A DNA stretch of 54,391 nucleotides from an uncultured Lachnospiraceae bacterium (lineage in GTDB: Bacteria; Bacillota; Clostridia; Lachnospirales; Lachnospiraceae), in NCBI GenBank assembly GCA_902793685.1, contig CADBEN010000013.1:1-54391 (forward strand), in the 5' to 3' direction. Shown here one piece after another: positions 25,354 to 38,950 of this stretch. Each line of letters begins with the position of its first letter. Positions within the stretch are counted from its first letter, which is position 1. Made by a program: the position numbers and the translations under genes. A model generated the notes under the pieces. That model was not told the DNA's origin. It did not search any database and was given only the letters and a program-made list of their open reading frames with translations.

Positions 25354-25425
25354 TGGGCCGTCGCCAAGCGGTTAAGGCAAAGGACTTTGACTCCTTGATC
25401 GAGGGTTCGAATCCCGCCGGCCCAG
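25354..25425 (+). tRNA. tRNA-Gln (anticodon TTG)
   Basis: A 72-nt cloverleaf: acceptor TGGGCCG with CGGCCCA and discriminator G, D arm GCC/GGC, anticodon arm AAGGA-CTTTGAC-TCCTT, and T loop TTCGAAT. CCA is not encoded. It is transcribed alone and followed by a terminator. A second glutamine tRNA (CTG) lies at 38871. Confidence 0.95.
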
Positions 25426-25435
25426 CGCAGAGAAA

Positions 25436-36266: not shown

Positions 36267-36318
36267 TCATTAAGTCTCAAGTGTTCTATACATTTTTATA
36301 TTGAAGGAGAAAAAGGAT

Positions 36319-37974
36319 ATGCAGGTAGGAACCGGTAAAAGCATTCTGAACGGAATCGCAATTGCAAAGATCAAGATCTATAAGGCACCGAAGCTTGAGA
36401 TCCCGCAGGGGATCATCGATGATCCGGAAGCTGAGATCGCACGTCTTGACGAAGCGGTAGAGAAGGTCATCGCCGAGCAGAATATGCTGTGTGAGAAGGC
36501 AAAGATCACTGCGGGCGAAGACAGTGCAGCTATCTTCGAGGTCCATGCGATGATGATGGAAGATGACGACCTGATGGATGCCATCAAGGAGATCATCGAG
36601 AACCAGAAGCGCTCCGCAGAGTATGCAGTAGATGTCGCGTTTGACAACCAGGCTGAGGTCTTCAAGTCCATGGATGATCCCTACATGCAGGCGAGAAGCG
36701 CGGACATGTACGATCTGAAGCAGTCCACCCTGAACTTCCTGATGGGCGCGGATCCGGGTGCCATGCAGGGCACCGAGCCGGCGATCCTTGTCGCGGAGGA
36801 TCTGGCTCCGTCTGAGACGGTCCGTCTGGACAAGTCCCTCCTTGTGGGCATGATCACCCGCGAGGGAAGCTCCAACAGCCACACCGCGATCCTGGCACGT
36901 TCCATGAACACCCCGGCGCTGATCCAGTGCAAGGAGATCAATGACAGCTGGGACGGCAAGCTTGCCATTCTGGACGGCTACAACAGCTGCGTCTATGTCG
37001 AGCCCACCGAGGACCTGCTCAAGACTCTGGGCGACAAGATGAAGGCAGACCAGGCGAAGCTCGCGCTCCTGCAGGAGCTGAAGGGCCAGCCGAACACCAC
37101 CATCGACGGCCACACCATCAAGGTCTACGCGAACATCGGCGGCCCGAGCGACATCGGTGCAGTCCAGCAGAACGACGCTGACGGCGTCGGCCTGTTCCGC
37201 TCTGAGTTCGTTTATCTGAACAGCAAGGAAGCTCCTTCCGAGGAAGATCAGTTCATGGCTTACAAGCACGTTCTTGAGAGCCTTGCTCCGCGGACGGTCG
37301 TCATCCGTACCTGCGACATCGGCGCTGACAAGACCATCGACTACATGAAGCTGGATCACGAGGACAACCCGGCCCTGGGTCTCCGCGCGCTCCGCATCTG
37401 CCTGACCAGAAAGGACTTCTTCAAGACACAGCTCCGCGCCCTGCTCCGCGCGTCTGCTTTCGGCCACCTTGCCATCATGTTCCCGATGGTCATCTCCGTC
37501 TGGGAGCTGAAGAAGGCGAAGGCGATCCTCGCGGAGTGCCGTCTCGAGCTTGAGAAGGAAGGCTACAAGATGGCTCCGGAAAGCGATATCGAAGTCGGCA
37601 TCATGATCGAGACTCCGGCAGCGGTATTCATGGGCGACGAGCTCGCTGAGGAAGCGGACTTCTTCTCCATCGGAACCAACGACCTGACCCAGTACACTCT
37701 GGCGATCGACCGTCAGAACGCGAAGCTGGAGCCGTTCCTGGATACCCACCATCCGGCAGTCCTCCGCGCCATCAAGGCGACCATCGACGCCGGACACAGA
37801 CACGGCATCTGGGTCGGCATCTGCGGCGAGCTCGGTGCTGACCAGGCTCTGACCGAGACCTTCCTCCGCATGGGCATCGACGAGCTGTCCGTCAACGCGA
37901 AGAGCGTTCTTCCGCTGAGGAAGATCATCCGCAGCACGGATCTCAGCAAGCCGGCGGCGAACAAGCTGTATTGA
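36319..37974 (+). CDS. ptsI: PTS enzyme I (phosphoenolpyruvate-protein phosphotransferase)
   Basis: A 551-aa enzyme I. It takes phosphate from PEP onto a histidine (about residue 188, in GSSNSHTAILARSM; the common TSH is NSH here) and passes it to HPr. The C-terminal PEP-binding domain has IMIETPAAVFMGDELAEEA, FSIGTNDLTQYTLAIDR and the Cys in GICGELG. ATG 36319 is chosen for AAGGAG upstream; a TTG at 36301 would be too early. Enzyme I is usually with ptsH, but HPr is not seen here. Codon use is strongly biased, as in highly expressed genes. Confidence 0.95.
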   Translation: MQVGTGKSILNGIAIAKIKIYKAPKLEIPQGIIDDPEAEIARLDEAVEKVIAEQNMLCEKAKITAGEDSAAIFEVHAMMMEDDDLMDAIKEIIENQKRSAEYAVDVAFDNQAEVFKSMDDPYMQARSADMYDLKQSTLNFLMGADPGAMQGTEPAILVAEDLAPSETVRLDKSLLVGMITREGSSNSHTAILARSMNTPALIQCKEINDSWDGKLAILDGYNSCVYVEPTEDLLKTLGDKMKADQAKLALLQELKGQPNTTIDGHTIKVYANIGGPSDIGAVQQNDADGVGLFRSEFVYLNSKEAPSEEDQFMAYKHVLESLAPRTVVIRTCDIGADKTIDYMKLDHEDNPALGLRALRICLTRKDFFKTQLRALLRASAFGHLAIMFPMVISVWELKKAKAILAECRLELEKEGYKMAPESDIEVGIMIETPAAVFMGDELAEEADFFSIGTNDLTQYTLAIDRQNAKLEPFLDTHHPAVLRAIKATIDAGHRHGIWVGICGELGADQALTETFLRMGIDELSVNAKSVLPLRKIIRSTDLSKPAANKLY

Positions 37975-37990
37975 TTCAGAAGCGCGCGGC

Positions 37991-38185
37991 TTCATAACAT
38001 CAAATGACCCTGGCCCGCTTTGAAAAACCTTGCCTTACCCTTACATCCTGCTCGGATGCATCTGTCTTTTCCGCTCGGTCGAGTGGCCTGACGGCATACT
38101 CTCGGTCGCGGAAAAGACAGCATCCGCAGGATGTGCGGTCAGGCTTCGATGTTTTTCAAAGCGGGCTGTGTCATTTTGCTATGAA
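37991..38185. repeat. Long hairpin A with conserved apical core
   Basis: A nearly 200-nt hairpin. Arms from outside in: TTCATA (37991-37996) with TATGAA (38180-38185); AAATGAC with GTCATTT; a perfect 16-bp arm 38013-38028 with 38151-38166; CATCCTG (38044-38050) with CAGGATG; and CTGTCTTTTCCGC (38062-38074) with 38108-38120. The apex 38075-38107 is a 33-nt core that includes GAGTGGCC then GGCATACTC around TGAC, flanked on both sides by CGGTC. The same core recurs inverted in hairpin B with 32 of 33 bases identical. The element lies after ptsI and has no reading frame of note. Confidence 0.85.
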
Positions 38186-38212
38186 TCTTCACTGAAGGAA
38201 TAATCGCTCAGT

Positions 38213-38316
38213 CGATCTGCGATGTTTTTGAAGGGGCGGCAGGGCCGTTTCCTTATACTGACCGGCAGTACGAAAGCGGCATGTTCCGGATCCTTCGACA
38301 AAACCGTCGCAGATCG
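38213..38316. repeat. Middle hairpin C, overlapping an arm of hairpin B
   Basis: CGATCTGCGA (38213-38222) pairs with TCGCAGATCG (38307-38316), AAGG near 38231-38234 with CCTT at 38292-38295, and GCCGTTTC with GAAAGCGGC further in. The CCTTC used here is the same one used by the outer arm of hairpin B, so the two foldings exclude each other. Confidence 0.6.
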
Positions 38317-38450
38317 ACCGATCGATCCGTGAACGTTGTACTTTCCGCGACCGAGAGTATGCCGTAAGGCCACTCGACCGAGCGGAAAGTACAGATACGT
38401 TCGAACGGATCGTGAGGGTAGATCAAGGGTTTTGGAGAAGGATCCCGGAA
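38284..38450. repeat. Long hairpin B with the same core, inverted
   Basis: Arms: TTCCGGATCCTTC (38284-38296) with GAAGGATCCCGGAA (38437-38450, one bulge); AAAACC with GGTTTT; CGATCCGT (38323-38330) with ACGGATCG (38405-38412); and GTACTTTCCGC (38338-38348) with GCGGAAAGTAC (38382-38392). The apex 38349-38381 is the reverse complement of the hairpin A core except for one base in the tetraloop (TTAC for TGAC). Stem sequences differ from A. It ends about 20 bases before the ribosome binding site of the DUF1294 gene. Confidence 0.85.
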
Positions 38451-38480
38451 CAAACGCTTAGAAATTATGGGGAGGAGAGT

Positions 38481-38753
38481 ATGCAGCAGTACATTCCGGC
38501 GTATTATGCCGCGGTAAACATTCTCGCGCTGCTGATGTACGGCGCGGACAAGGCGAAGGCAAAGACCGGAGCCTGGCGGATCCCCGAGCGTGAGCTGCTC
38601 GGTATTGCGTTCCTCGGCGGGGCGTTCGGCGCCTTCCTCGGCATGCAGCTGTTCCGGCACAAGACGAAACACGCCGGTTTCGTGATCCTCGTCCCCCTGT
38701 TCTGCGTTCTGCATGCCGTTCTCCTGTTCCTTTTGTTTCGGGGGAAAGTCTGA
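38481..38753 (+). CDS. DUF1294 small membrane protein
   Basis: A 90-aa protein with two or three hydrophobic helices and the DUF1294 core DKAKAKTGAWRIPERELL, GGAFGAFLGM and FRHKTKH. The function of the family is unknown. ATG 38481 has GGGGAGGAGAG upstream; the preceding 23 codons of open frame lack any site and lie in hairpin B. It has no operon partner and is followed by the tRNA-Gln promoter. Confidence 0.88.
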   Translation: MQQYIPAYYAAVNILALLMYGADKAKAKTGAWRIPERELLGIAFLGGAFGAFLGMQLFRHKTKHAGFVILVPLFCVLHAVLLFLLFRGKV

Positions 38754-38870: not shown

Positions 38871-38943
38871 TGGGCTATCGCCAAATGGTAAGGCAACGGA
38901 CTCTGACTCCGTCATTGTGAAGGTTCGAATCCTTCTAGCCCAG
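38871..38943 (+). tRNA. tRNA-Gln (anticodon CTG)
   Basis: A 73-nt cloverleaf: acceptor TGGGCTA with TAGCCCA and discriminator G, anticodon arm ACGGA-CTCTGAC-TCCGT, T arm GAAGG-TTCGAAT-CCTTC. CCA is not encoded. It has its own promoter and terminator. Confidence 0.95.
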
Positions 38944-38950
38944 CTTAAAA

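Follow-up and report, generated by a model that had tools for sequence, protein, structure and literature searches.

A dispersed hairpin-forming repeat with constant internal loops and changing stems in an uncultured Lachnospiraceae genome

The gap between ptsI and a DUF1294 gene in the genome of an uncultured Lachnospiraceae bacterium contains two large hairpins, A and B. On balance we consider that they are probably copies of a small non-coding palindrome, a non-autonomous mobile DNA that is REPIN/BIME-like in behaviour and recognised by its shape. The initial annotation of this DNA had named a palindromic mobile repeat as one possibility, and it is the one that we prefer. The copies are dispersed, patchily present and constant in architecture across two genera, with paired changes in their stems and slower change in their loops; mobility, a single-stranded intermediate and recognition through the loops are what we infer. 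Neither excision nor a polymorphic empty site was seen, which argues against mobility.

Hairpins A and B between ptsI and the DUF1294 gene

The hairpins reported between these two genes are real features of the window (the whole stretch of 54,391 nucleotides that was analysed). Hairpin A occupies 37991-38185, exactly as claimed, and its ends read TTCATA..TATGAA. Hairpin B is present as well, with limits (38283-38451) that lie one base beyond the 38284-38450 first given for it at each end. The 33-nt apices at 38075-38107 and 38349-38381 were described as reverse complements that differ once, in the tetraloop, on stems of unlike sequence that retain their pairing, and both descriptions hold. As single-stranded DNA, 37985-38190 (A) has a folding z of -11.4 and 38200-38460 (B) one of -8.2, values that were each equalled by 0 of 200 shuffles. 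The features of the gap and its neighbours are as follows.

36301..37974, plus strand: ptsI (PEP-utilising enzyme; Pfam PF02896, PF05524, PF00391), the upstream neighbour, outside the element
37991..38185, minus strand: hairpin A, whole; GACCGA loops read on the minus strand
38013..38021, no strand assigned: outer stem of A, left arm GCCCGCTTT, a locus-specific 9-mer
38018..38162, minus strand: copy A of the dispersed core (model R1, 163.8 bits, E 1.0e-42; A is in the training set)
38075..38107, minus strand: apex of A, with a symmetric GACCGA/GACCGA internal loop (minus-strand reading) and a tetraloop
38158..38178, plus strand: outer stem of A, right arm and tail AAAGCGGGCTGTGTCATTTTG, 19/21 identical to the stretch after ptsI in the congener G003
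38203..38230, minus strand: truncated third copy CAAAAACATCGCAGATCGACTGAGCGAT, 5' arm of the core only
38283..38451, plus strand: hairpin B, whole; GACCGA loops on the plus strand
38294..38438, plus strand: copy B of the dispersed core (model R1, 167.1 bits, E 1.2e-43; B is in the training set)
38349..38381, plus strand: apex of B
38412..38753, plus strand: open frame with the DUF1294 gene (Pfam PF06961), the downstream neighbour

No 3' arm of the truncated third copy was found between A and B. Judged by eye, the true start of the DUF1294 gene is probably the ATG at 38481, so hairpin B would be upstream of the gene. The window also carries two tRNA-Gln genes, at 25354-25426 (anticodon TTG) and, after the DUF1294 gene, at 38871-38944 (CTG).

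Copies and architecture of the repeat in two genera

A DNA search of the genome that holds the window (G000; 2.54 Mb in 63 contigs) gave further places, and a covariance model, R1, was built from 11 copies in this genome. At E ≤ 0.001, R1 finds 12 places there, A and B among them, each with a non-coding core of about 136 nt; its E-values are rough owing to short calibration. The 11 training copies score 144 to 172 bits and the twelfth (C24), which has the other apex, 71 bits. Two 36-nt matches at E 0.003 to 0.006 (C11:4189-4224 and C19:29637-29672) were left out of the copy count. Across the 11 copies with the type-1 core, the spacing of the conserved ends varies by at most one base, and identity between copies is 62% to 88% (mean 75%). 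Since the copies are this divergent, it is doubtful that the repeat would still be active in its own genome. Inverted pairs occur at two loci, A/B and C4m/C4p, and the remaining eight copies are single. The C4m/C4p pair (L010:5042-5384) is located downstream of serS and, like A/B, has its minus copy first and its plus copy second. Copy C24 (L034:5000-5136, the same as G000:C24:8699-8835) combines the second apex type with the longest locus-specific arms, in which pairing reaches about 60 nt or more past the core.

Presence among relatives is patchy. None of the six congeners matches the model, even at E ≤ 1 with laxer filters. With stricter filters, the own genome is the only match among 61 relatives (itself included), and matches among 397 family genomes are confined to the own genome and G255, a member of another genus; since the 397-genome search regained 8 of the 12 copies in the own genome itself, its negatives elsewhere are uncertain. 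The occurrence of copies in related genomes, with stems that covary, had been proposed as the test of a selected structure. Run in part, it did not refute the structure: copies with covarying stems occur both in this genome and in another genus, and all six congeners are without the repeat.

A BLAST search of G255 with the L063 stretch gave 44 matches, of which 8 long hairpins of full length were analysed. These are about 215 nt long and have the second apex type. The L067 match lies, by eye, apparently within coding sequence. Short hairpins of about 85 nt (L146-L159) have outer arms in common with the long ones and a loop/end of TCAAGAAAATTC, and by inspection their stems covary. In all six loci where both kinds were recognised by inspection, the short hairpin lies upstream of its long partner in inverted orientation; at one locus an additional short hairpin follows downstream. 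The 12 short-hairpin matches in G255 include one that looks like chance (L158:5060) and two that are cut by contig ends (L155 and L156). At L157:10-98, a long hairpin has lost its distal part and has a TACA loop, as if by slippage. A search of 18 sequences from the own genome for short hairpins of the G255 type gave one match, which is unconvincing. Plasmid and phage records contain no match to the own element or to a G255 element. Three patterns gave 0 stretches in viral contigs, and a 16-mer gave 47, which have little meaning at that length. An exact-pattern contig scan returned five stretches; none is matched by the model at E ≤ 10, and they were taken as chance.

Read on the GACCGA strand, the outer part of the core consists of CAAAACC, a loop ATCGCA/AAG, a stem, and then GA/GTA, CT/AG and GA/GA. 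The inner part is a variable stem, a bulge GA, a variable stem, a bulge GAT and a variable stem, and the top is GACCGA/GACCGA, an apical stem and a tri- or tetraloop. What stays constant in the repeat is a series of bulges and internal loops spread along its length, not the apex. The initial annotation had seen a conserved apex on covarying stems. Both arms do change and still pair, but the apex is not the conserved unit and is not invariant: the GAGT/ACTC apical stem is replaced by GACT/AGTC in C1 and C4m, and the whole apex is of another kind in C24 and in the G255 copies.

In the alignment of 11 own copies, standard pairs fill 97.6% of 539 pair cells, both sides have changed in 31 of 49 pairs, and the covariation score is 0.522 versus 0.200 in shuffles; each of these values was reached by 0 of 500 shuffles. 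Because the structure was derived from this same alignment, and from related copies, these controls favour it and are not probabilities. Slid controls of this alignment are 27% to 46% paired. Further pair types show no excess, with 43 in the alignment and 43.8 in shuffles. An alignment of 17 copies from both genera (12 own and 5 from G255), which was fitted to the model and is biased to its structure, has 96.3% of 779 cells paired and 39 of 49 pairs double-changed, and its further pair types are reached by 35 of 500 shuffles. The architecture is held in both genera. The difference rate between copies is 0.289 in paired columns and 0.113 in unpaired ones (2.6-fold), a pattern which suggests that the folded shape is what matters for the repeat.

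Covariation had also been read as the mark of selection. The stems do covary, but covariation alone is not proof of selection, because template switching can alter both arms together; PMC8794818 describes how template switching in replication can change both arms of a hairpin at once. On this basis the copies could be ancient, inactive insertions in which quasipalindrome correction maintains complementary arms and the structure is unselected. Such an origin is favoured by five sister-copy comparisons in which 42 pair positions changed on two sides and 8 on one (58 versus 11 in all seven comparisons), and by double changes that cluster along the stem in one of the seven (C4m/C1, p = 0.006; the remaining six range from p 0.069 to 0.50). 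However, under template switching the loops should drift at least as fast as the stems and tend to be copied into the arms, yet the unpaired columns are slower and the loop sequences recur in another genus. Since loops that change more slowly than stems would not be explained by template switching alone, we judge this account improbable. A parsimony reconstruction gave 59 two-sided and 31 one-sided branch events, but in 19 of those 31 the reconstructed ancestor is an unpaired C-A, and parsimony is therefore not leaned on.

Genomic context, transcription and the ptsI terminator

All 12 own copies lie in gaps between genes, as called by a simple composition score, and their orientation to the neighbouring genes is mixed. 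In 11 of the 12, a simple ORF call has one or both flanking genes ending toward the copy, as a raw count. The neighbours are ordinary genes (ptsI, DUF1294, secDF, tgt, serS, prs, lacI-type and pfkB-type genes, dnaA, rnpA, divIC/S4/HU, DHFR, pyrI, SHMT and others). A Pfam scan of 29 ORFs adjacent to copies or close by gave no transposase family as a best match; DnaA has a minor IstB_IS21 match via its ATPase domain, and one ORF has no match. Copy C25 (L012:5011-5155) lies between dnaA (minus) and rnpA (plus), upstream of both and perhaps near the replication origin.

The repeat could instead be a structured RNA, either a 3'-UTR element or a trans-acting RNA family, with stems kept by selection on the transcript. 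Several properties of the sequence would fit such a role. The GACCGA/GACCGA loop on the GACC strand could form tandem G.A pairs, this strand is the more stable under RNA parameters in 10 of 12 copies (by a mean of 2.5 kcal/mol), the interval from A to B has one promoter-like site where 0.3 were expected, and the loops recur in another genus. However, the mixed orientation of the copies to flanking genes and the lack of the repeat in all six congeners speak against an RNA. No Rfam family matches the repeat: nothing was found at 37950-38500 at E ≤ 5. A known RNA family was likewise rejected, the only Rfam gathering-score matches in the window being the two tRNAs. Constraint on RNA alone is expected to accept G-U far more readily than A-C. 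Because A-C on one strand corresponds to G-T on the opposite one, G-U should be strongly favoured wherever only the RNA is constrained. In the own copies G-U is rare, with 5 cells against 3 A-C among 539, and the G255 copies, truncated copy L157 included, have 16 against 9 among 510 lettered cells. G-U does exceed A-C overall (21 versus 12), counts too small to argue against an RNA preference, and the near balance leans toward pairing on both strands or as DNA. We regard an RNA as an unlikely, though still substantial, alternative to a mobile palindrome.

A REPIN or REP-type element moved by a RAYT (Y1 transposase) would share with REPINs, as PMC3116915 presents them, the extragenic position, hairpins and compensatory changes seen here and the inverted doublets seen at some loci. 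The own genome has six matches to Y1_Tnp (PF01797; L140-L145). The REP tag GTAG is present in 7 of 11 own copies; it lies there within the 3' half of the core, in an internal and not a terminal position. Of the six Y1_Tnp matches, one covers almost the full profile, another contains an internal stop and the rest are shorter, and two of them lie at contig ends. Beside these loci the model has no significant match and only one in all, at E 0.89. In G255, no Y1_Tnp match was found at E ≤ 0.1; the assembly is 89% complete, and a missed gene is possible. The units are also far longer than REPs, for which PMC3733652 gives 20 to 40 bp. A RAYT-moved element is thus very improbable in our view, and because no Y1 transposase was found in G255, the repeat is not filed as a REP or REPIN.

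Beyond CAAAACC/GGTTTTG, the arms of each own copy pair better with each other than with those of other copies. For the 12 own copies, the mean duplex energy is -51.6 kcal/mol in true pairs and -28.0 (sd 7.9) in cross pairs; 10 of 12 fall below the 5th percentile of cross pairs, and 4 of 12 do so 25 nt further out. The same test in G255 gave 0 of 8 at both distances, and the arms there are common to the copies. By eye, the outer stems of C1, C4n, C4p and C24 run into T tracts, and the others are without a clear tract.

From 38158, the right flank of A matches the stretch just after ptsI in G003 at 19 of 21 bases (score 15), and that stretch folds as a terminator-like hairpin. Among 2302 overlapping segments taken from congener loci the runner-up scores 11, and 4306 segments drawn from own and G255 loci score 12 at most; 0 of 5000 shuffles reach 15. 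With a flank cut three bases shorter, which was our first choice, the score is 12, reached by 1 of 5000 shuffles and exceeded by the best of 2000 other shuffles (13). The left-arm 9-mer of A also occurs after ptsI in G003, as the left arm of the terminator-like hairpin; it is the complement of the right arm and so is not independent evidence. Copy A thus seems, from these alignments, to be located in the loop of a ptsI terminator that one congener still has, and a single comparison supports insertion into that loop. The flanks at serS, rqcP and prs score 9 to 11 against congeners, which is background level, and the comparison that resembles an empty site comes from the ptsI site only. Insertion into terminators as a general rule was rejected, the support being at ptsI in one congener.

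Proposed mechanism and closest known systems

In the mobile reading that we prefer, the repeat would spread, or would once have spread, as a folded single-stranded hairpin. A putative trans-acting factor would read the fixed internal loops and bulges and not the sequences of the stems, which would be free to drift while both arms stay complementary. Its copies are found between genes and in both orientations, some of them arranged as inverted pairs. The copy at ptsI would have entered the loop of the terminator hairpin and lengthened it. A more specific form of this proposal is a shape-defined mobile element: a hairpin of 136 nt would enter the loops of other hairpins, terminators for example, and extend them coaxially so that the terminator is kept, and its row of conserved internal loops would be read by a factor unrelated to the known REP transposases. 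We offer it as a speculative reading that is unlikely as it stands.

The 12 copies in one genome and the sister set from another genus vary in their stems and hardly at all in their loops, a natural collection that allows a test of whether a repeat can be recognised by its folded shape alone. The same set would allow tests of DNA versus RNA recognition and of the share of template switching in the paired changes. If insertion into terminator loops were general, such a repeat could enter compact genomes with little harm.

The initial annotation knew of no named family with this core, and a search of Rfam bears this out for that database. No description of this repeat was found among the top-ranked papers in searches of an open-access library. 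PMC2267715 reports many stem-loop repeat families.

REPINs are described in PMC3116915 as extragenic, hairpin-forming inverted doublets with compensatory changes. The repeat resembles REPINs and BIMEs as they appear there and in PMC2817692, being extragenic and dispersed, with hairpins, inverted doublets at some loci and compensatory changes in its arms. Like REPs, it consists of extragenic palindromes dispersed in one genome (12 copies). It differs from REPINs, which have conserved REP ends and covarying spacer arms, in its constant internal loops along a 136-nt core. Its units range from about 85 to more than 200 nt, with a type-1 core of about 136 nt, against the 20 to 40 bp stated for REPs in PMC3733652. 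REPs have GTAG at one end; the GTAG of the own copies is internal, and at that place the G255 copies read GCAG (by eye). No cognate Y1 transposase was found, with no match in the 89% complete G255 assembly and no significant hairpin alongside the six in the own genome.

The MITE-like repeats ERIC, YPAL, NEMIS and RUP are characterised in PMC3733652 as non-coding, gene-adjacent sequences of 70 to 300 bp with strong hairpins. All of these features are shared by the repeat, which is set beside them by description only. MITEs have terminal inverted repeats common to their copies, whereas the arms here are locus-specific in G000 and common in G255.

Intrinsic terminators offer another likeness: downstream of ptsI in one congener lies a stretch that the outer arm of copy A matches, and some outer stems run into T tracts. 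In contrast to terminators, the repeat has a conserved 136-nt core with fixed loops in place of a short loop, and C25 lies upstream of both its neighbours. Integron attC sites are recognised by their folded structure and extrahelical bases, and their stem sequence is variable. Recognition by shape and variability of the stems are common ground with the repeat as we interpret it; unlike attC sites, the repeat is longer, and the neighbours that were scanned are ordinary genes and not a cassette array. The repeat is best placed among the dispersed bacterial palindromes, where it is unusual in that its loops, more than its arms, carry its identity.
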